Position numbers and translations under genes: made by a program. From Symbiodinium sp. CCMP2592 (taxonomy: Eukaryota; Sar; Dinophyceae; Suessiales; Symbiodiniaceae): 64,000 nucleotides of DNA. Numbering within the stretch: position 1 is the stretch's first letter; every line of letters starts with the position of its first letter. The stretch is from positions 124,001-188,000 of the forward strand of contig CAJNDT010006182.1 of assembly GCA_905221615.1 (NCBI GenBank), read 5' to 3'. This document shows positions 16,919-53,803 of the stretch, piece after piece. Under the pieces are notes generated by a model. The model ran no database searches and was not told where the DNA came from. It was given only the letters and a program-made list of their open reading frames with translations.

Positions 16919-18647
16919 CTACGCAAGGTCACGAGTCACGGGTCCGTGCAAACACAAGGAACGTTTTTCTACGTCCTCTGATCGGACAGAAAGGGATGGC
17001 AGGAAAGGGAGGAGCGAAGGGCTCATTCCGAACCCTGTTACTAATTGCACAAAGGGATCCATGAGGCATCCTGAGGCACAGGTCAAGAACAAACGTTGAA
17101 AGTGGAAAAGACAGAGCCGGTCTTTTGCGATCACGGCTCCGTAGTTCAAGCCGCCACTCAGACGCAACCCTGGTACCCGCTGTCCCTGAAGTAGCCTGGG
17201 GCTGCCCCTGGCGGCGTTTTTCCGCACGTCGGGCCCTCCACATGGCACGGTCCTCTTAGTTCCTTTGCTTTCTCCATGCTTCAATGGGCCTGCATTTGGG
17301 CGTGGCTGTGTCCCCGACATCCGTCTCTCTTGCGCTGTGTCCCCTGTGTCTTGTAGGCAGGGTCCCTCTGGTTGGGCTGAGCGTTGATGTCCAAGGGATA
17401 CTGCAGGTCCTCGTGCCCGGTCTCGCCGTCTCCAGGCTTCGTTGCAGCTTCGGTTTCGCTGTTGTCTTCGGTTTCGGGTTTGGCGCTGCCCCCAATCAGG
17501 CTCCTCGGTCTCCTGCACGTCGACCTGGTAGAAAGGCTCGTTGTTGGGCAAGCGCTGGATCGTGCTCGGCGCGTCGTTCTCGCTGTCCGCTGCTTGTAAT
17601 GGAGGCCCCGCGTTCTGTTCCGTCCGCCTTGGTTTTGTCTCAGGCTCCTGCACGTTGACCTGGCAGTAGGGCTCGACGTTGGGCAGGTTCTGGATCGAGC
17701 TCAATGCATCGTTCTCGTTACTCGCTGCTTGTAGTGGGGCCCCGCATTCTGTGCCGTCTGCCCCGGTTTTGCGAGGGGGGCTGTGTTCTCCTCATTGGAG
17801 ACCGAGGTGGGGGGAGCCGCATCGTTGGCGCTGGGTAATCCGGTGCCTGTCATGAACTGGTAGTAGGCCTCCGTGTGTGGGTAGTACTCGGCATTGTCGG
17901 TTTGAGGGTGCAAGCCCGAGAGTGGTGTATTCAAGTCCTCCCCCGTCACTGGTACTGCGGCATCAGCTTCACTCGGTTCGGACTGGGTCTCGTTGGTGGG
18001 CAGAGCACTGTCCCCGCTTCCCCGTTGGTTGTGCTGAGGCTGGGTGTGGTGGCGGTGCACGGGACAGCTCTAGCAGCTCCCGCTTCAGGGGGCTGCGGCC
18101 TCGTAGGATTCTGTGTTGCACTGGTTCAGGGGCGCTCGCCGGGCTCAAGTGGCGGATCCGGTGGCATCGAAGTGTTGGCCCCGTTCTGTGTCTGAGGCTG
18201 GTTCTGCTTGGGTTTGGCTTTCTGGCTTTGCGCTTCTTTTTCCGCCCAAGGTCGGGGGGCTCAAACTCGAGGATGGCGGCCCATGCTTTTTGTTCATCGC
18301 GCTTGTCCTGGGTCCCCCAAGTCTCCTCAACCACACGTGTTGTGGTCGACGTGGGGCCGCTCTGCACTGTCGTAGGTAAGCGAGGGCCTCTCCGCCGTTG
18401 CTGGCTGTCGAGCCGTGGAACGGATCTGACCGTGTGCGCCCTCCATGCCAGGAAAGGCCCTGGAGGCACTTCCGACACTTCTGTGTCCCCGGAGTGCCAG
18501 GCCGCCGAGGTCGAGGTAGGTGTCTCGATCGTGCCGTAAAAGGCGCTCTGGGGGCGCACGAACTTCTAAGCCTACAGGGTCCTGAGCTGTAGACGGCGGC
18601 GTCGGATGGTCTCAAGCCATCCCCACTCGGGCAAGCGTCCACCCCCA
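16919..18647 (-). pseudogene. Frame-broken coding relic with 135-bp tandem units
   Basis: The minus strand carries protein-like sequence whose coding character jumps between frames. Residues such as ETWGTQDKRDEQKAWAAILE, then a Lys/Arg patch, are encoded near 18330-18230. Acidic repeats with the theme IQ-LPN-EP-QV-VQE follow near 17720-17490, and a further acidic stretch (KPETEDNSETE) continues in another frame to about 17285. Two tandem 135-bp units (17511-17645 and 17646-17780) align closely. The second lacks one G near 17737, which splits the frames at 18060-17701 and 17704-16919. I do not recognise the protein. The right end meets the inverted-repeat element at 18648, so a 5' part may have been cut off by that insertion; this is inference. 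Orientation matches the spliced-leader relict beyond the element. Confidence 0.5.
17511..17780 (-). repeat. Two 135-bp tandem units
   Basis: The words for CTCCTGCACGT and CTTGTA recur exactly 135 bp apart (17511/17646 and 17593/17728). The period is 45 codons, so an intact copy would keep frame. The second unit has lost one base. Confidence 0.8.
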
Positions 18648-18684
18648 CTTGGAGGGTCGCTCTGCTTATAAGTGGTTGCTGGAC
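18648..18684 (+). repeat. Left terminal inverted repeat
   Basis: Pairs with 28907-28871 on the opposite strand, 24 of the first 26 bases identical. It passes into the subterminal TAAGT array. Confidence 0.75.
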
Positions 18685-18975
18685 TTAGTAAGTGGATGAT
18701 GGACTTAGGTTGGACTTATAAAAGTGAAGACTAAGTGAGTTACGGAGAGCACGGACTAAGTGAGTTAAGATCTACTTATGTTGCGGTTATTAAGTGGGAT
18801 ACGGCGGACTTACAAAGTGGCGTAAGTCACTTAGGGTTGCACTTACATAAGTAGGCTAAGTAGGACTTAGAGGATTTACATAAGTAGGATAAGCGCACTT
18901 ACATAAGTAGGATAAGTGCACTTACATAAGTAGGATAAGTACATTTCCGTAAGTAGGCTAAGTAGGTTCAGGGGC
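18661..18975. repeat. Left subterminal ACTTA/TAAGT array
   Basis: I count about 15 TAAGT and 10 ACTTA words in 315 bp. The inner half is a tandem of roughly 31-bp units containing CTTACATAAGTAGGATAAG (about 18840-18970). Clustered short motifs next to terminal repeats are the usual layout of transposase-binding sites in En/Spm-like elements; that function is inferred. Confidence 0.8.
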
Positions 18976-19297
18976 CTGCAACATGGGGAGTGTTTGGGAC
19001 TACGGAAACCACTTCCAAGGGCCCAATATTACTATATACTTATACATATATACATGCATAATATCAAAACGTTTCAGAACACCACAAGAGAAACCCCGAA
19101 AGCAGCGACTCCAAGTAGTAGACGACATAGGCGGCAGCCTGCGACAGGGCGATGCTCAACGTCAGAAAAGAATACATTATATACGAGACTTCGCTGACGT
19201 ACATGGGTTTGCAGGTTTCACTTGAGATTTGATGGGCTTGCACGCAGGAGACAGCATGCAAGGCTTCGAGTTGCGAGGGTTTTTTTGCTTGCAAGGG

Positions 19298-19435
19298 CAC
19301 GGGAACGTTTATCGAAGGTTTGGACTTTGCGGGGATGCATGTACATACAAGGTTGAAGGCGGCCTTAACACGGGAACGTTTATCGAAGGCTTGGGTTTTG
19401 CGGGGGCATACATACAAGGTTGAAGGTGGCCTTTA
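19298..19435. repeat. Tandem duplication of a ~70-bp unit
   Basis: Two adjacent copies begin CACGGGAACGTTTATCGAAGG (19298 and 19369) and share the words ACATACAAGGTTGAAGG and GGCCTT. The second is about four bases shorter. It lies between the left subterminal array and the gene's 3' end. Confidence 0.8.
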
Positions 19436-19663
19436 AAGCATGGCCTATTTTGCAGGTGACAAAATTTTTGACGACCATGCAACGTTCATTTTTTCAATTC
19501 ATGATCCGTGCAGATACTTCCCTCGAAGCGGCTGCATGGGCTTAAAAAAGAAATGACATAACGTGTCGATCACATACATCATGGGCGGCTCTGCATGTCC
19601 GCGAAGCACATATATGCTCCTGCAGACCCGTCTGCGAGCGGAATGCCCTGCAGACGGTGTTTC

Positions 19664-20628
19664 CTATAGAGGGCCTTTTAAAGGAATGACCAAGGCATCG
19701 TCGCCTTCAGGGCGGTGAATGCAAAGAGAAGATATGTCCTGGGTAGGCACAAAGAGTGGCCTGCTGTTGTCCATCCGAAACATGTTATTCCCCAAGTTCC
19801 TCCACGAGGAAAGGCATGTGTAGCCATGGCCGCAAAAAGACACATGAAACCATACCTGTGCCACTGTCAATGTACCGTCGACAAGGGCCACCACTACATC
19901 CCCTCGCTTGCAAATGCGGCCCTGTCCCACGGCCGCTTCGTTGCAGCTTTCCAAGCCAAGGCATTCGTCCAAACCAAAGCAGTGGCAAAATGCTTGCTGC
20001 ACTGGAACAGCAGCAGACCGCGGTGTAACCAGCCCTTTGCGACCCACAGAATAGGTTCACAGGTTGTTGGGATGGTTCTCCACAGCCACTTGCATGACAT
20101 GCTCTTCGGAACCGGCCTTCATAGAGTCCAGCTGGTCTGCGATTTGTTTGACGGATCTGCGGCGCCTCTCGTGCACGAAGCATGAAAGAAGAATCTGATG
20201 ATGGCGGAGCGAATCCGCAAGATGGAGGGCATAGTGTCCCTTGGGGAGCACTTTTTCTGCACCGTACACCTCCACATATTTGCGCATGTGCCTGCAAATT
20301 TTCTCTTCCAAGTCGTCGGCAGCAACACGCCCAGTGGCGCTCAGCTGCAGTGAATCCAAAACATCGCAAAGGAGGAAAAAACTTTGGATGGCTTCTCGAC
20401 ACTCTTGAGATGCAATGCCAGGCAGGCGCCGCTGCAAAAAGGACTGCATGACAGGGTAGAACGCAAGCCCCTCGGATGCCGAGCACTTGAACTCTTGATC
20501 CTTCTTCTCCATCTTCTGGAACAAGTTCTTGTCCGACACACTCCGTCCACCAATGTATGCGGGCCACTCGCAAACTTGAAAGAAGTTGTGCCTGCATGTG
20601 CACCCATGGATGGAGTTCAGAAAATGTA
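19664..20628 (-). CDS. Exon d of the element gene, interrupted by TGA
   Basis: After a CTTGCAG acceptor (20630-20629) the frame encodes HFLNSIHGC, WPAYIGGRSVSDKNLF, FKCSASEGLAFYP, LPKGHYALHLADS and CFVHERRRR up to a TGA at 20059-20057. The same frame then continues for about 130 codons (VGRKGLVTPRS, KRGDVVVALVDG, GNNMFRMD, CIHRPEGDDALVIPLKG) to a TAG at 19664. No splice is needed to link the two halves. A CGA-to-TGA change is the simplest explanation. Confidence 0.65.
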
Positions 20629-20809
20629 CTGCAAGCATATAGTTCTGATGGTTAACATATATACGTATGTATACATATGTTGTATATCTTTCAATACAGT
20701 CTACATCCCATGCTTACACAAGAACTCAGAAGAACTCTTTTTTCCAGAAAGAAACGCAAACAATCCGACACTGCTGTTAATGGACAGCCGGGGCACATCT
20801 GCTCTGGTC

Positions 20810-21250
20810 CTATAGATTCCTTCTTCAGCAAGTCTCGCAACAAGTTCATTTCAGTTTGCATCACCCCTCCAACTAGGAAGCAATGCATCCAGTCAAACAT
20901 AGAAAGCGAGATCGGCTTGAGCTTGTCCCGAAGACTCTCCGAATATAGACAACCATGCGGAACGTAGTTCAAGCCCAGGGCCATTTCGCGGGTCTTAAAC
21001 TGCCCTTTGTTGAGCAAAGGTTGCTGTTCGGCCAGATGCTTTGCAGCGTCCAGCATGCCGCTGTCGGTTTGCAGGATCATCCTATTCTTGTCAGGGTTGG
21101 CATGGCTCATAAGAACACCTGCTCTATCATGGCTGTGTAGATCAGAGGGTTCGGAGACCACGTTTGTGCATTTGAAGCACAGCTTGTTTCCTCCAGCGCC
21201 CTTGTCCTCCCAAAGCTGTTTCAAGGCCAGCTCATCTGCGATGATAAGAC
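20810..21250 (-). CDS. Exon c of the element gene
   Basis: It follows ACATACCAGAG and completes a Gly codon with the last G of exon b, giving NGLIIADELALKQLW. It encodes KLCFKCTNV, a possible zinc-binding Cys pair, HANPDKNRM, LGLNYVPHGCLYSE and SMFDWMHCFLVGG. The intron before it (21419-21251) contains a TATG microsatellite. The 3' end at 20810 is the least certain junction. Confidence 0.65.
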
Positions 21251-21419
21251 CTCTGGTATGTTTTCTGCATTTTGTTTGGAACACATATACATACATACAG
21301 ACATACATATATAGACAGAAGACACACATATAGTCAGACATACAAATACACACATGAAGTCAGTAAGCAGGATAAACCTCAATCGGAAGCATAAACATGT
21401 TGCATAAGAAAAGTACATC
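21251..21419 (-). other. Intron with non-canonical GA donor and TATG microsatellite
   Basis: Joining AACG to GTCTT restores a continuous frame. The intron then begins GATGTA and ends CAGAG. G|GA donors are known from dinoflagellate genomes. Confidence 0.55.
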
Positions 21420-21882
21420 CGTTCGCCAAGATTCCCAGCTTGCAGCACAGCGTCATGTTAGCACCGTTCTTCAGAGGCAGCAGAAGGCCGTAGTGCAACA
21501 AGTCATGTCGTGCAACCAGGAAAACCTCCAGGAAGCGCTTCATGACTTGTGCCATGCCGTTGGCACATCTCTTGACATCCACGGATCGGATGCAACTTAC
21601 CAACAGCCAGCTGTCCTCTTTCGAAAGCGCCAACCCCCCGAGTTGCTTCAGAGACATGTAGATCACCTGAAGCTTCCTCTCATTCGAGGGTTTCAGCTGG
21701 TTCCCTGGCGAAACCTCGTCTACATACAAGCACAGGGACCAGGGCTGGGACGGAGCGCTCGGATGAAGGCCGTTTCGCTCTTCCAGAAACTCGGCGAAAC
21801 CTCCGCCTTCCCGGCACACGGCCCACAGCAGGGCAGCCGGGTCTAAGTAGGACACTGTCAAGGGCTTGCCCTTTTCCATCAC
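21420..21882 (-). CDS. Exon b of the element gene
   Basis: It starts at GTG ATG GAA after an AAAAAAAGAG acceptor and encodes about 154 residues, including LYVDEVSPGNQLK and KEDSWLLVSCIRS. Acidic residues in these motifs are candidates for catalytic positions, which is inference. The donor fits as AACG|GATG, a G|GA site, at 21420/21419. Confidence 0.65.
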
Positions 21883-21992
21883 CTCTTTTTTTCAACAACA
21901 TGGACCCCCAAAAGATCGAATATTCTAAGGTATAAAGCGAATATATACGTCCAAAAAAAGATTTAAAGTTCCCCGTTCACAATCTAAGTCAC

Positions 21993-22209
21993 GAACCCAG
22001 TCATCGTTCGCCACAGTGGTCCGTACGGTGTGTCCATGCGCAGGTCCCGCTCTCTTTTGCGCTTGAGCGTTGTTCTCGAAGTAGCCAGGTGCTGTTCATC
22101 TTCGTCTTTAACAATGCTCAAAATTTCAGCCAAAGCTCGTTGTGACACAAAGGATTTCCGCTGCGCCGTCAGCAGTCTTTCGGCGGCCATGATGCGAGCT
22201 ATTTCAGCC
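21993..22209 (-). CDS. Exon a of the element gene
   Basis: It begins after a good acceptor (TGTTTTGTTGCAG, AG at 22211-22210). It encodes an Ala/Arg/Lys/Glu-rich, probably helical stretch that ends PYGPLWRTMTGF. The donor is read as GTGAC at 21992, phase 0, which joins exon b without a frame change. Unspliced, a TAG follows at once. Confidence 0.6.
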
Positions 22210-22554
22210 CTGCAACAAAACACAGGCGATTCCTTGTTGGAACCTGCCTGTGTAACGCTGTCTGTGGATGTATAAAGTATATCTTGACATCCTACGATAC
22301 TGTCGGTTTCCGTGGGGCATTTGCATTTTCATTGGTGCATATCTGCAAGCTAAGAAACACACCTACATACATACAGGCATGCCTGCATACCTATATACTT
22401 ATGTAGATAAACCTACACATATAGGTATACAAACATATACATACATTTCGATTTTCAGGTTTATGACACATATAGAAGTAATTTGTTACAAATGCTGTTT
22501 TACAGAAGGGCCCAGAGGAACCTGTGAGCAAAGATAGCTGCAGCTGCACAGAAC

Positions 22555-23062
22555 CAAGTTCTAATATGCACATGTTCATGTATATATATAGATACATATA
22601 TGCATACATATACACACATATACATATATACATATATACATATACACATATACACATATATACATATATACATGTATACATGTATACATGTGTACATATA
22701 TACATATATACATATATACATATACACATATACACATATATACATATATACATATATACATATATACATATATACATATACACATATATACATATATACA
22801 TATATACATACATACAGAAAAACATATATACATATATGTACATATATACACAGATACATACATACATATACATATACATATACATACACACACATACACA
22901 TACGTATATGTGCATATACATATACATGTACATATACATGTACATATACATATACATATTCATAATATATATATATATATATATATGTATATAAATTCAC
23001 ATATGTTTATATACAGATATGCACATATATATATATATACAGATACACACGTATCCCATGCA
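22555..23062. repeat. TATACA/CACATA microsatellite
   Basis: Over 500 bp of ACATAT and CATATA units with a TA run at 22966-22986. It lies just upstream of exon a, so probably within an intron of the element gene. Confidence 0.9.
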
Positions 23063-23301
23063 CCTGATTCCTTCACGGTTTAATTCACAAACCAATGACC
23101 TTCAACCAATGCTCGGTGCACATGCATGCAATCATCCAGAATATAAACCACGGCATGGTCACCACACCATTGATGGACAAGGCTCTAAACATACGTACAT
23201 ATAAAGACCTATATAAGAAGAATAAGACAAACCTACATGTTCTGTATGCATCGATAAATGGGTACATAGATGACTCCGGCACCCACGATATTTCTTGCAC
23301 G

Positions 23302-23308
<7 letters not shown>

Positions 23309-23336
<28 letters not shown>
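23309..23336. repeat. TA microsatellite
   Basis: About 13 TA units in a row. Confidence 0.9.
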
Positions 23337-23338
<2 letters not shown>

Positions 23339-23600
23339 TTGCGAGGCACTCGAGACACATACCATGAACAGCTACATCATGCATGGCCACGGGGGTAGGC
23401 CCCCCCAAGGGAAACTCTGGCCTTTTTTTTCCTGCAGACCAGCAGGAAGCCGGTCGATGTTACCTCCAGCAAGCTGCTGTGGCAGAGGGACTGCTGCTCA
23501 ATTGTAGTAGACGTGCTGTTCCGGCGGAGCCCTGCGCACGTAGTGTAGGTTTTTTTTTCTCCCTTAGGCTTGCTGTTTGCTGCCGGCGGCCTCCGGCCGC

Positions 23601-23781
23601 CAATGTCCATCGACATTCGGGGCTCGCCGCCGAATGTCGTTCGACATTGGCGGGTTTTTTTCAATATCGAACAACTTTCGAGGCACGCCCGCTGCAACGC
23701 CCAATGTCGATCGACATTGGTTGCTCGCCAACAAATGTCGATCGACATTCTGGTGTTCACACAAATATCGTTCAACATTGG
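23601..23781. repeat. Array of six palindromes based on AATGTCGATCGACATT
   Basis: Near-palindromic sites start at about 23602, 23633, 23662, 23702, 23733 and 23763, so spacing is mostly 29-31 bp with one 40-bp step. The copy at 23701-23720 is a perfect 20-bp palindrome (CCAATGTCGATCGACATTGG); the others differ at 1-5 positions. The spacers do not resemble each other. Each unit could bind a dimeric protein or fold as a small hairpin. It sits in the upstream half of the transposon, on the 5' side of its gene. Confidence 0.85.
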
Positions 23782-24205
23782 CCTTGTATCATGGGGTTGC
23801 TGTGAAAGCAAAGGGAAGCAGGCCGCGGGACTGTCACAAACTACAAGGACAAGCTTTCCTAGGCGAGCCATTGTAGTTAAGGGACCGTGCTTTGCTAAGT
23901 CTTATCTATTGGCCAAGCACAGCAAACTTGCCGTGAGCTCCGCTGTAGAGATGCCGCTTCCTTAAACTATGCCCTTGCCGCCTGGCTGTAGAGTGCCCAA
24001 AGATGACGCCGCTACACCCCTGAAACCCCAGCCCCAGCTGCTGCCCGAGTGCCTCCAGGGCGACAGCGACAGCATCAGAAGGCTGTGACCTGAAAGGTTC
24101 TTGGTCCCAATTTTGGTTATATAACCCCCCATGCAATTACAGCATGCTGCGTCGACAGTCCCATTGTTTTCCAGAGCTGTCGCAACGTGACAAGGTATAA
24201 TGCTT

Positions 24206-24252
24206 GTTTGCACGCAAAACTGCAGACTCTCAAGCAGCAGCAGCAGCAGCAC
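24206..24252. repeat. Short CAG/CTG run
   Basis: A few AGC triplets at 24234-24252 within the transposon. Confidence 0.6.
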
Positions 24253-24272
24253 AGCATATACAAATCATGATC

Positions 24273-24408
24273 CGGACTTTGATTCCGATGAGGAATCGGA
24301 CTCGGAGTCTTCAGCAGCTACCTGCCCATCAGCTACCGGCGCTTGCTCCGCTTGCTCGGCTACCTGTTCCGGTGGCTCGGCAGCCGGAGCCAAGGGCGCA
24401 GGCTCCTC
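24273..24408 (-). CDS. Candidate upstream acidic exon of the element gene
   Basis: After a TA microsatellite and a GTGCACAG acceptor, a 136-nt frame encodes Ala/Pro/Glu/Gln-rich then Asp/Ser-rich residues (AAEDSESDSSSESKS). It ends at a possible G|GATC donor before a TGA. A disordered acidic N-terminal exon is plausible, but the exons linking it to exon a are not identified. Confidence 0.3.
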
Positions 24409-24418
24409 CTGTGCACGG

Positions 24419-24438
24419 GGTATATATATATATATATG
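24419..24438. repeat. TA microsatellite
   Basis: A short TA run directly upstream of the candidate acidic exon on the minus strand. Confidence 0.8.
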
Positions 24439-24440
24439 TA

Positions 24441-27400
24441 AACCCTCAGAAACGTTATAATCACTACAATATGATGCACTATAACACACCAAACAAACCT
24501 CCTTCTAACCAAACAAACCCTCTGCTGGGCCCCCTTACATTGAAAGGGTCCCTAAAAAATGATAGCACGTGTGTGCATTTGTGGATATATGCATGCGATG
24601 TTGCATGACCCCAAAGACTCCCGAATCATTAAAGTTTGTATATGGAACTGTAGGTATACATACATATACTCATGATCTATAGAAGCCCGTACGTGTATAT
24701 ATGTTTGTATGCGAACCCATGCACGCACCCTCGAATTTTATACCTTTTCCTATATATAACCAAACATGACCCCCGCGGCCCCAGTACTGTGCGGCCTTGT
24801 CCACGCATCGGCAGCGACGGCCGCGCGAAGAGCCCCCCCTCGGCAAGGACGGACGTTGCGCTTGCATGTGCTACATGTGTACATATACGATACACAGCAC
24901 ACCGTACCAATATATGCAGTGTAAGTGCACGGTGTATTGATATATAAGAAATAGATATATGTGTAGATATATGTGTACAGATATAGATAGAAAGATAGAT
25001 ATCATATGTGCATGCGGATGCCTATATATACATATATATATATATGTATATACAGGTGTGCATTTCCTTCATGCAAGCATGCATTCCGCACGACATATAT
25101 ACCTTGTACAGTACAGATACATATATACAAAATGTATTACAAGCGAATGTGAGTGTATATATATATATATATATATATATGTTTTTTATATGCCATCTAT
25201 ATGCATTGCCGATCGATGCAGCCGTTGTGCATGTATGCATGTGGCACACTAAAGGCCCGTTATACAACATAGGTAGATGTCTACACAAGGAACGAATGCA
25301 AATCCCAACATGCACTCTGTTTTAATGCTTGCATGCCGGACTCCTAGAACACAATTGTAAATGTCGTAACACATAACAGGCATCCAGCTACAAAACCCAT
25401 AAACAATCCCGGTAACAATCTATATGTATATATACATATATAAACACCCAAACTCTGTACACCACCATTTGCATTCCCCATGCAAGCAGCCCTGAAAAAA
25501 AGATCATACACATGTGTCGGATTCTGTGGCCCCGGCCATCAGCATGGAAAACGTCTTCTGTCGAGAACCTCGCGGTTGCTTCACAATTTGAGCCGTGTAA
25601 ACATTGATCTACACATGTATTATATACACACCTAAAATCTTCAATGTATAAACAGTATGTATGTATAAATATGCCGACAGACATTATTTTCATGCATGGT
25701 ACATGCATATGGTCCTGCTTGCATTCATGTATATGCATGCATGACACCACCAAAACTGTGTGACATCTTGTTCTTTAGTATGTATATATCTATAATAATA
25801 TTTATGAGAATGTAAATATGTAATATTTGTACCATGCAACGCACAAAACCTATATGCTTGCATATCCCGTGGGATATGTATGTGTGCACGTGCAGCTTTA
25901 TCTACAAACTGAATTGTACGGCTATGTATTATAAAGGAGGCTTCTCACGAACAAAACCAGCAGGTGATCCCGACCCAACCAGCAACATAATCGCAGCAAC
26001 CCTTCATTCCGCGATCAAATAAAGAGTACTTGGGCTCCAGCTGCATCGGCCTCGGGATCTGTGTGGACTAACCTCGGCCAAACTTTTCTCGTGCTGCTGC
26101 ATAGATTGAATCTAGATCTTCCGTCCTTATATCTACTATATAGAGGGAACTACAAACAATCTTCATGGTCCTACTTTATGTCGTGCTCAAATCGAAACAT
26201 GCAGATCGCATGGGAAGTGCTGGGTTCCAAGCCTGGCAACTGTGCACAGCTGGACGAGACACCTGCAAAACAGTCGTGGTTCAAGCAGTCCTACAAAGCT
26301 GCGAGCACGAAGCCCTGCATGCTTGCACACGCGAGTAACAAACTCTGCATGCACTCCTGACTCTGATTCACTCGCAGCTGGCCGGCCTGCGACTCTTGGT
26401 GATGGAGAGTCGGCTTCAAGATCCTTGCCAAAGAAACCAGCATGCTGTATGTCATGTCCACATGAGTATATATACAAGAAAAGACTCAACACACAGAGCC
26501 GAACACACGAAAATCCCACAACTTACAACCAAAAGCTTATAAACCCTTGTAGAAGCCCCGGGCTGGTCTTATATAACATGTAAATATAATCGTGTAAACT
26601 TTTATCGACTTCCATGGTATTTGTACATACATTGGTATACAGCTTTATCGAAAATATACTCAAGCAATCCTTCTACATTACAGGTGTATATGTATATGTG
26701 CATGTACATGTATATGAATATGTATATGCATATGTATACTGTCTATATCTCCATTTTTCTTTATACATATGTATGTATATTATAATACATCACCAGTTTA
26801 CAACTATCACCGAAATGCTTGCTTCCTGGGCAAGATATTTTATCTTGCCTTGCATTTCGGGTCTAAGGATATATTGCTAATGGTTCATGGGGTTGCGCGT
26901 GTGTATACACGGCAGAATCGCATGCGTTGTATGTGCCTCCGTTGGGTTGCCAACCCAGTCCCTTGAATCCTGGAACCCGAGCTTGAATTTCAATATCAAC
27001 AGTGTTTGTGTAAAACCTACATAAACCCTCCCGTCACCCATATGCTTCCAAGAACGAAACACATAGGAGCCCAAACATCACAGACCAAGCCAAAACAAAT
27101 CGCAACCCGATTTGAGCTTACTCAACTTGCACTCTCCATGCCTCATATACATCCCTTTAAGATATACATCTCGAACACAGAGAACCACGGCATCAGCCTC
27201 TTTGCATGCGGTGACCAATGCATACACCCATAATTCAGGAGCCCTGTTTAGAATTCACTTATGTACTCGAACTCACTCCCCAAACCCCGACACCTTAACC
27301 CCAACCCCGAAACTCTCATCCTTATAGATCCCGAAACTCCCTTACAGTTGTTTTCGGCAGCTTTATAGCCTGGAAGATTGTTTACAGTGTTTTCTACTTA

Positions 27401-28238
27401 TACTCAAGTAATGAGGTTCAGTGGTATAAGCGAAGTATGGCTCAAACAACAACTGCTCATGCCCAAATATATAGACGGTTTTTACTACAAAGTCTACATA
27501 CGATGTCCAGGAATCCAAAACGACCTTTGTGTGTGGGGGCCTATATGTAGGAAGATAAGATAGCTGAAACAATATGTTCTCGGTCACCTCTGTGTATACC
27601 ATATTTACACCCAGCCTGAACCCTGCTGTGTATTTCAAAGCCTATACTGTTTGGGCCTTCGCACCCAGGAACTGAACGTTTTTTGTTAAGGCTTTATTTC
27701 GACAAACCTAGAGCCTGTTTGAATAACCTAATATGTGCTTTAACTATATACCATGTAGCCTATATAAGCCTCCTTGAAACAAAGCGCCGCAGCCCAACAC
27801 CTTCAAAACCTTCAAGACTCTATAAAGATCCCGGCAGCAATCCACTATTTTTCCCAAAGCAAGCGAATCTTCCAAAACAAACCCCGCCCAAACAATTCGA
27901 CCCCCCCCCCGCCTCAAGCAGGGGCTCGAAGATGTTGCGGCCGCAGCCACACATGCATGGGCTTGGAGGGGAGCATCTCTAATTATATGACGAGGCATTA
28001 ATGGGGCTTCCTTGTACAAGAGAGTCATAGTTATACTCCCGCCGTTTTCCCAAGTTTGAATTTCATCCCTTTGACATTCATCACACTGCATGGGCAGAGG
28101 TCACATCGCGCCAACACCTTCCTGATGCCATTTGGTATGGGGTCTATTTGGCTTTGGTGTTTCTGTGAATATATGCATGATATATGTGACAATACATGCT
28201 CTCGCACCGACCAAGTGTTGTTTCTTGTCTGGAAAATG
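24441..28238. other. AT-rich right half of the element, no gene resolved
   Basis: AT-rich DNA with many small TA/CATA microsatellites (25019-25060, 25153-25183, 26680-26790) and degenerate CCCAAACCC-like words near 27270-27340. A GC-rich patch at about 24770-24870 could be a missed exon. No frame is convincing. Confidence 0.45.
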
Positions 28239-28425
28239 CAAACATACATACATACATACATACATACAAAAATACATACGTGCAAAAATGCATACATCCA
28301 TGCATGCATATATATATATATATGCAACCAAAAATGTCATACATTTTTCTACAATATACATATATATACACATATGCATACATAAATATGATCAGGCAAT
28401 ATATATATATATACATTTCTAAACT
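28239..28425. repeat. CATA/TATACA microsatellite
   Basis: A pure CATA run at 28242-28266, then interrupted TA/CATA units up to the right subterminal array. Confidence 0.85.
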
Positions 28426-28458
28426 ATTACATACGTATATATTGAACTGCCGACCATC

Positions 28459-28890
28459 CTACTTATCGGACTTAGCCAGACACGCCGCGGATCCTACTTA
28501 TCGGACTTATCCGGAACCCACTTAGCGGACTTAGAAGCTGACCCACTTAGCCTACTTACTCGGAGGCCCCGTCGCTGGACTTATGTCCTACTTAGCCCCT
28601 AATTATAACTGAGTTATAAGTTGACACGAAGTCGATCACAACTCAGTTGTTCAGGTTGTTTTATAAGCGCCTTAAGTACAACGTAAGTCCAGTATCTGGT
28701 TACCACAACTACAACTTAAATACACTAATGTTTAAGTAATTATAAATCAACAACAAAACATCGTCGGACTTATGGTCCACTTAAAGCACTTGGAGGTGTG
28801 GTTACTGAACTTATAACTCAAGTTACTGTACTTAATAAGTTACTTAGTAACCAGAGCATAACTGATGCAAATGCATCAATTACTTATAAA
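28459..28890. repeat. Right subterminal ACTTA/TAAGT array
   Basis: About 17 ACTTA and at least 4 TAAGT words. The inner part repeats CCTACTTATCGGACTTA-like units. In reverse complement the left array opens with CCTACTTAGCCTACTTAC, and this array contains CCCACTTAGCCTACTTAC, so the arrays are in inverted orientation. Confidence 0.8.
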
Positions 28891-28907
28891 CAGAGCGATC
28901 CTCCAAG
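28871..28907 (-). repeat. Right terminal inverted repeat
   Basis: The reverse complement begins CTTGGAGGATCGCTCTG and matches the left end at 24 of 26 positions. Confidence 0.75.
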
Positions 28908-28939
28908 CAGGAACCCCCGAAGGAAGACGTGGCCGATGA

Positions 28940-28958
28940 CTTGAGCCAAAATGGCTAC
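28940..28958 (-). other. Relict dinoflagellate spliced leader (DinoSL)
   Basis: GTAGCCATTTTGGCTCAAG on the minus strand is identical to the last 19 nt of the roughly 22-nt leader trans-spliced to dinoflagellate nuclear mRNAs. The two preceding bases (GA) differ from the CC of the leader. A genomic leader copy that is not an SL RNA gene is the known mark of a reverse-transcribed mRNA reinserted into the genome. No SL RNA gene body or donor GT follows (next bases TCATCGG), so this is a relict. Sequence downstream on the minus strand runs 32 nt before meeting the transposon end. Confidence 0.85.
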
Positions 28959-28962
28959 TCTA

Positions 28963-52930: not shown

Positions 52931-53803
52931 CAGCCAACGGCACAGAGCAGCATGCAATTAGCAGTCGGAGTGCGCAAATGAACGAAAACGACTGAAGCCC
53001 GTGCCAGGAAGTCGGCCGCCTGGCCGAAGGGCAAAATACAACAAAACTGGCCAAAGTTCCCTTAAGGTGGGCTTCCGGAGTTCAGTGTTCAGGGGTTAAG
53101 GTTTAAGGGTCGTGCGAAAGATGGTCACTCGACCCCTTCGTGAGAGTTGTTCCAGCAGGACCCTGAATACCCCAACACCTTCAAAAGTACACCCCAAAAC
53201 CACCAAAAAAAACCTGACTGAGCGTTGGAGGCACTCAGGGTATCAGGATACATAGGGTCGGGTCTAGAATCCAGATCTTTTGAACGAGACTAGACATGTA
53301 TGACAAAAAGGCATAATCTCCTTGCTGTGGCCGCTCAAAACCAGTTCCTGAAGTTCAAAGCTCCAGCCATCGTGCAGGTACTAGTTACAACGCCGTCAGG
53401 AAGAACCAAACCCCCACCTCAACCAATGCTTTTCCTGAAGACATTCAAAGTCCCGCCTCTGCCGGAAGAGGGGACCCGAGCCCCTATGCCGCGAAAAACC
53501 CCCGCTGAAAATGCATGGGCGAGGCGAGTGCAAAAACCAAGGTTCTCAGCAACAAGGCGCTCAAAAGATGGCTCATGTGATGCAAGGACACTGCAAATGC
53601 AGAAGGCTTTTCAGCCTCATAGAAGCCGGATGCACTCACGGTCGGAGCTTGCAGAGCGAAAGGCGCCGCCAAATTGACAGCAAAATGCAGCGTCCCTCAT
53701 AGCCACCGAAAGCACGTGACTGCAAGCAAGGCTCAAGCTCACAATCACATAAGTCAAAAGGACAAGCAAAATGCTTCGTGTAGCAACCGAAAGCAGTTGC
53801 AAA
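52931..53803. other. No gene seen
   Basis: Nothing supported downstream of the 239-aa ORF on its strand. Confidence 0.45.

Follow-up and report, generated by a model that had tools for sequence, protein, structure and literature searches.

We analysed a 64,000 nt window of the Symbiodinium sp. CCMP2592 genome (contig CAJNDT010006182.1, positions 124,001 to 188,000; C5320:124001-188000 in our numbering), and positions given without a contig name refer to this window. The region 18648-28907, 10,260 bp in length, is very probably an internally deleted copy of a giant, two-gene DNA transposon resembling the CACTA/EnSpm-Mirage-Chapaev-Transib (CMCT) clade, and the copy is probably non-autonomous. 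The evidence comes from the ends of the element, from a much longer sister copy, and from a pair of genes that recurs in the 1.098 Gb assembly used for all genome searches.

The window element and its sister copy

A first-pass annotation of the window had proposed one large cut-and-paste element, on the basis of its matching ends, dense internal motif arrays, shifted base composition and an internal multi-exon gene. The matching ends were confirmed: 24 of 26 bases agree in inverted orientation, and the ends are the only two matches with three or fewer mismatches in the window, whilst none was found in 100 shuffles. Inside the ends lie dense ACTTA/TAAGT arrays, with 25 motifs in 328 bp on the left and 22 in 452 bp on the right, against means of 2.5 and 2.6 in 1000 dinucleotide shuffles of each end. 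The opposite orientation attributed to the two arrays is a bias and not a pure arrangement, as the left array contains 10 ACTTA and 15 TAAGT motifs, and the right array 17 and 5. The composition shift was also borne out, with a GC content of 0.443 in the element and 0.549 and 0.529 in the 10 kb flanks, and the internal gene is predicted to comprise four exons on the minus strand. The reading as one large terminal-inverted-repeat (TIR) transposon, with its boundaries, was therefore upheld; a cut-and-paste mode is suggested by the TIRs, the 2 bp target-site duplications (TSDs) and the motifs.

Searching the assembly with the two ends returned 24 matches for the left end and 22 for the right, the window's own included. 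Only one other place carries both ends at high identity (98 and 100 %), a 39,337 bp copy on the minus strand of C2946 (486895-526231), inserted in a CCCTAAACCATCC repeat with the junctions CCCTA/CTTGG...CCAAG/TAAACC and the TSD TA. The first-pass annotation had staked its reading on a second locus sharing both ends about 10 kb apart; the C2946 ends lie 39.3 kb apart, a spacing that we attribute to deletion in the window copy. Comparison of the two copies defined the termini. On the right, the match to C2946 ends exactly at 28907. On the left, it extends 5 bases past the element start, as a C-rich stretch with an A is found in both flanks, and the start was fixed at 18648 by the 2 bp duplication.

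The window element aligns with the C2946 copy in five collinear BLAST pieces of 87-96 % identity (~95 % overall), interrupted at two junctions where C2946 is far longer (Table 1). We read the window copy as internally deleted, with ~29 kb missing, a second gene (gene 2) included, and it is probably a non-autonomous relic.

The transposase-like gene and gene 2

The gene retained in the window encodes a transposase-like protein. Our predicted gene model has 675 codons, GT-AG, GA-AG and GT-AG introns, and one premature TGA that follows the putative catalytic E. Its exon junctions were fixed by alignment with single-frame relatives. A first, five-exon model was dropped when the single frames of the relatives showed that its junctions were wrong. 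The last intron of that model had masked the premature stop, and two indels seen earlier are intronic in the corrected model. Comparison of the window with C2946 gives 18 differences in 2028 exon sites and 45 in 1880 noncoding sites (introns 14/497, other compared parts 31/1383; P=0.00019). This lower exon divergence suggests that the protein was under selection in the past; counted by codon, the differences are few (8 synonymous and 9 nonsynonymous codons).

With the first-model protein as query (E≤0.001; 64 of 774 candidates scored), at least 155 matches to the transposase were found in the genome, where one locus may hold several. Relatives fall into groups of ~63-65 % identity (over residues 1-190) and ~34-39 %, and many loci have uninterrupted transposase frames of ~590-730 aa. 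Copies in three groups are at least 99 % identical over 3.7-4.0 kb, and copies of subfamily F3 are 95-97 % identical; the ~99 % identical copies suggest recent activity. We aligned five proteins, from the window (F1), L062 (F3), L065 (F4), L070 and L073 (F5), with pairwise identities of 31-55 %. Eight residues are invariant in all five: D121, D227, C246, C249, H344, H530, H534 and E552, numbered on the 690 aa first gene model. They include the series D, D, C(2)C, H(3)H, E, with putative catalytic roles that are our own assignment.

The transposase-like protein gave no Pfam match at the cut-off, and the five members gave none at E≤1; no PDB chain fell below E 1.5, and 35 pattern matches in IMG/VR included no confirmed relative. 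A PDB match at E 1.5 to an IS110-type transposase and weak Pfam matches to COQ7, DUF5327, OSBS_N and EAP30 were discarded.

Gene 2, absent from the window, lies in the 8.7 kb segment of C2946, which contains frames of 481 and 301 codons on the same strand, the second probably continuing the first. Relatives of gene 2 include many single frames of 450-770 codons (query, 420 aa of the first frame; 100 of 461 candidates scored). We counted gene pairs at 61 transposase loci among the matches listed, taking one place per locus. At 29 of these loci gene 2 was found no more than 30 kb upstream, 28 times on the strand of the transposase; no locus had it in the 30 kb downstream, and a uniform spread would place 0.33 on either side by chance. 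In the larger relatives the DDE-type transposase-like gene lies ~8-26 kb downstream of gene 2 on the same strand. At C90, the two genes share a strand and gene 2 is 58 kb upstream, and at four other loci it is on the same contig at least 100 kb away. The most plausible reading of gene 2 is as an ancestral partner that the window copy has lost, since distant relatives share it beside their transposases. In the available portions of the literature, to which all citations here are limited, TNPA of En/Spm recognizes subterminal repeats and TNPD is the transposase (PMC2613891). By analogy, we propose that the gene 2 protein binds the subterminal arrays.

Termini, target sites and relationship to known transposons

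The terminal design of the window element recurs in other subfamilies. Seven elements with both ends, 3.3 to 51 kb in size, all start CTTGGAGGRTCG and all have 2 bp pyrimidine-purine (YR) TSDs (Table 1). For the C5335 element we found a paralogous empty site, a copy of the repeated flank with a single uninterrupted TG. At C227, an end was expected no more than 3 kb from the transposase; L078 has none, and the paired end lies ~33 kb further, at 53327. Seven further single termini adjoin TA, CG, TG, TA, TA, CA and TG, giving YR beside 14 of the 14 termini first counted. Twenty new termini were then read, comprising the 10 remaining exact F5 ends and 10 listed places of the F3/F4 pattern (the six further places with one mismatch, and four with two); 19 adjoin YR (14 TA, 3 TG and 2 CA), against a background YR frequency of 0.226. 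Dropping duplicated flanks (one repeats L074, and one pair is identical) leaves 17 of 18, and 31 of 32 independent termini in all. With up to two mismatches, the F3/F4 terminus pattern occurs at 256 sites and in the reversed control at none; the F5 terminus occurs at 14 sites and at none reversed. The flanks of these pattern sites were read for the named termini only.

Published CMCT families have the pattern D, D, C(2)C, H(3-4)H, E, TSDs of 2 to 5 bp and, in most cases, 5'-CA..TG-3' termini (PMC12730594). The residue pattern is present in 5/5 of our proteins, and the TSD is 2 bp in 7/7 two-ended elements. The best reading is of a lineage of large two-gene CMCT-like transposons with their own termini, of which the window holds an internally deleted copy, and the larger relatives (up to ~51 kb) look like a distinct branch of CACTA-like transposons. 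Like CACTA/EnSpm elements (En/Spm, Tam1 and soybean Tgmt*, the last 20.5 kb), they are large and have TIRs, direct and inverted subterminal repeats, deletion derivatives and next to the transposase, a second protein with a presumed role in array binding (PMC2613891), and they share the residue pattern (PMC12730594); the arrays were shuffle-tested in the window element. They differ in having CTTGGAGG termini in place of a CACTA (CAC..GTG) core, a 2 bp YR instead of a 3 bp TSD, and no match to a tnp2/TNPD-type Pfam transposase (five members, E≤1); moreover, the second protein is encoded by a separate upstream gene and has no recognized domain. ESTA and Mirage were set apart by their descriptions, not their sequences, as the TSDs here include CA, TG and CG. 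Mirage, which duplicates the dinucleotide TA, shares the CMCT lineage, the residue pattern and the TA duplication. ESTA likewise has 2 bp TA duplications and the CMCT residue pattern (PMC12730594). Plavaka belongs to the CMCT clade and has 2-3 bp TSDs, but its termini are TGT..ACA or CATCA..TGATG (PMC12730594), and ours are CTTGG..CCAAG. Dinoflagellate introners also have short inverted ends and direct target repeats (PMC7789003, PMC11453091), but are intronic and lack an internal transposase gene (PMC7789003), whereas the elements described here are multi-kilobase and carry genes.

A number of observations weigh against the reading of an internally deleted, two-gene CMCT-like transposon. No Pfam profile or PDB structure match ties the transposase-like protein to a named family; it fits CMCT by residue pattern, in a motif order that we assigned ourselves. 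The CA..TG termini are absent, the subfamilies read having CTTGG..CCAAG, which is compatible with membership because the source says 'in most cases'. Both of the full insertions of the window subfamily in the assembly are damaged, by the TGA in the window and by a frameshifting 5 bp insertion in exon 4 of C2946. The comparison of copies proposed by the first-pass annotation yielded the second full copy, but no empty allele of the window insertion site was found in the assembly. One new terminus adjoins TT, and L041 (on C435), an array-bearing near-match left out of the YR counts together with eroded end remnants, has a differing terminus, the flank GA and its first ACTTA 177 bp in. The arrays of F4 and F5 are thinner, and those of F3, F4 and F5 are known from motif counts. 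Finally, gene 2 has no Pfam domain at the cut-off, and for 32 of the 61 transposase loci, the window's included, none of the gene 2 matches listed lies in the 30 kb upstream.

The last two points would be expected if gene 2 were a passenger without a part in transposition, and no DNA-binding domain is recognized in it. We consider this unlikely, yet it is the alternative that deserves most weight. Where the genes lie within 30 kb of each other, gene 2 is upstream in every one of the 29 pairs, across several subfamilies; at three F3 loci it starts 1131-1151 bp inside the terminus, and the fact that diverged subfamilies have kept it suggests a role common to them.

It is distinctly less probable that the element is a TIR transposon of another superfamily with 2 bp TA-type TSDs, such as a TA-duplicating Harbinger relative, and that its CMCT-like residues are coincidental. 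TA duplications do occur outside CMCT, in PHISTA of PIF/Harbinger (PMC12730594), and the protein lacks a profile match to any CMCT family. Coincidence would have to account for an ordered set of eight residues, namely D, D, C(2)C, H, H(3)H and E, that does not vary among five proteins of 31-55 % identity, and the large size, subterminal arrays and second protein are CACTA-like.

More doubtful still is the proposal that the compact window copy represents the ancestral state, and that C2946 grew by insertion at both junctions. The first extra segment of C2946 contains a Ty1/copia-like gag-pol (RVT_2 match at E 1.9e-5, short of the Pfam cut-off), bounded by 148 bp direct repeats that are 99 % identical, around which no clear target duplication was seen; part of this segment may well have been inserted. 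Against growth of the whole, gene 2 in the second segment appears ancestral, neither junction has an insertion-type duplication, and junction 2 interrupts an open frame. A chance inverted repeat or segmental rearrangement, to which the presence of just two full subfamily copies might point, can be dismissed for practical purposes, given identical termini at two unrelated sites with differing 2 bp TSDs, the lack of any end match in shuffles and a terminal design that other subfamilies share.

On the model of En/Spm, the transposase of a CMCT-like element of this kind would cut at the CTTGGAGG termini, and the element would be joined to a YR dinucleotide with a 2 bp stagger, producing the 2 bp TSDs. 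Gene 2 or another element protein may bind the ACTTA/TAAGT arrays and help to pair the ends.

The first-pass annotation knew of no dinoflagellate family with such ends, and our literature search agrees in finding no description of such elements in dinoflagellates in the accessible text, with subscription journals, Repbase and supplementary files lying outside the search. The available portions report one 119 bp RepeatMasker match to plant EnSpm in Alexandrium (PMC3229502), Merlin, which is another superfamily, in Symbiodinium (PMC8101967), little-diverged and possibly active DNA transposons in hybrid Symbiodiniaceae assemblies (PMC8045281), and transposase sequences from most Symbiodiniaceae, with families not named (PMC11114475). 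As far as these portions go, Symbiodiniaceae genome papers treat DNA transposons and transposases without family resolution and leave many genes 'dark' (PMC8045281, PMC11453091, PMC11114475). The chances seem to us evenly balanced that these giant elements of up to 51 kb, with their two genes, form a lineage at superfamily level and a major DNA-transposon group of this genome, with CTTGG termini, subterminal ACTTA arrays, 2 bp YR targets and a transposase that has only the residue pattern in common with CMCT; on this reading, gene 2 would encode a new kind of co-transposase that binds the ends and is not related to TNPA of plants. Two large protein families for which Pfam gives no match would be explained as parts of one mobile element, and the termini, target rule and gene order can be used to screen other dinoflagellate genomes. 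Such elements could also supply transposase to small derivatives and mobilize them in trans, which makes the mobilization source of small elements a testable question.

Feature coordinates, rejected candidates and minor observations

Table 1. Features of the window element and the seven elements with both ends
Feature	Position	Strand	Remarks
Left TSD, CA	18646..18647		CA on both sides of element; TA on both sides of sister copy
Left TIR, CTTGGAGGGTCGCTCTGCTTATAAGT	18648..18673	+	24/26 against right end; start common to C2946 copy
Left subterminal ACTTA/TAAGT array	18661..18975		25 motifs in 18648-18975; shuffle maximum 9
Transposase-like gene, exon 4	19664..20591	-	In-frame TGA at 20059-20057; model fitted to single-frame relatives
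Exon 3	20797..21250	-	Second D, C(2)C, FDWMH
Exon 2	21435..21882	-	First D, YVDEVSPGNQLK; following intron GA-AG
Exon 1	21993..22190	-	ATG start
Junction 1	23386..23387		C2946 longer by 20,193 bp, Ty1/copia-like gag-pol included (collinear BLAST pieces, junction letters)
Retained 3' end of acidic-tailed open frame	24265..24420	-	Continues into 8.7 kb segment in C2946
Junction 2	24420..24421		8,692 bp absent relative to C2946, gene 2 included (collinear BLAST pieces, junction letters)
Right subterminal ACTTA/TAAGT array	28456..28880		22 motifs in 28456-28907; shuffle maximum 9
Right TIR, CTTGGAGGATCGCTCTGTTTATAAGT on minus strand	28882..28907	-	24/26 against left end
Right TSD, CA	28908..28909
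Window element	18648..28907		10,260 bp; TSD CA
Sister copy	C2946:486895-526231	-	39,337 bp; TSD TA
C46 element	C46:70356-90505		TSD TA
C5208 element	C5208:375941-394932		TSD TG
C227 element	C227:53327-104372		51,046 bp, F3; TSD TA; judged from both ends and the TSD, with content read at the two gene places
C615 element	C615:95789-99119		TSD CG; assigned to F3 by terminus alone, not read through
C5335 element	C5335:137285-151137		TSD TG

About 20 further two-end matches (~78-83 % identity; 22 others for the left end and 20 for the right) were rejected as independent transpositions. They represent a fused left-end/right-end remnant of ~740 bp without the terminal bases, as judged from three loci compared with the window. 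This remnant is carried by a different repeat starting GTGCCTTGGACGC after G/C runs, a start seen in 11 of 12 loci (L003-L008, L013-L017 and L022). A TIR search allowing one mismatch returned 59 sites against 42 in reversed controls, mostly chance, and its zero-mismatch match on C2846, which has no array, was taken as spurious; its CTTGGAGGGTCGCTTCG group is the second subfamily, F3.

At L073 (C402:459176-463207), a 340-codon frame lies directly upstream of the F5 transposase and has a basic end with GCSKCRWSPGCRPCC; it is possibly an extra zinc-binding element protein. Degenerate TTTAGGG-like arrays follow immediately after the transposase frame at L065 (F4), and some insertions have telomere-like flanks. 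Within the window, a relic of the dinoflagellate spliced leader (DinoSL), with two mismatches, lies at 28940-28960 on the minus strand, ~33 bp outside the right end, and this copy may have inserted next to the 5' terminus of a retroposed gene. The relic and the GA-AG intron fit a dinoflagellate host. The 142 bp at 26704-26845 are absent from C2946, where the flanking matches overlap by 5 bp; they represent either a small insertion here with a 5 bp duplication or a deletion in C2946. Near-palindromes of the type AATGTCGATCGACATT, repeated within the element, occur at 23590-23790.

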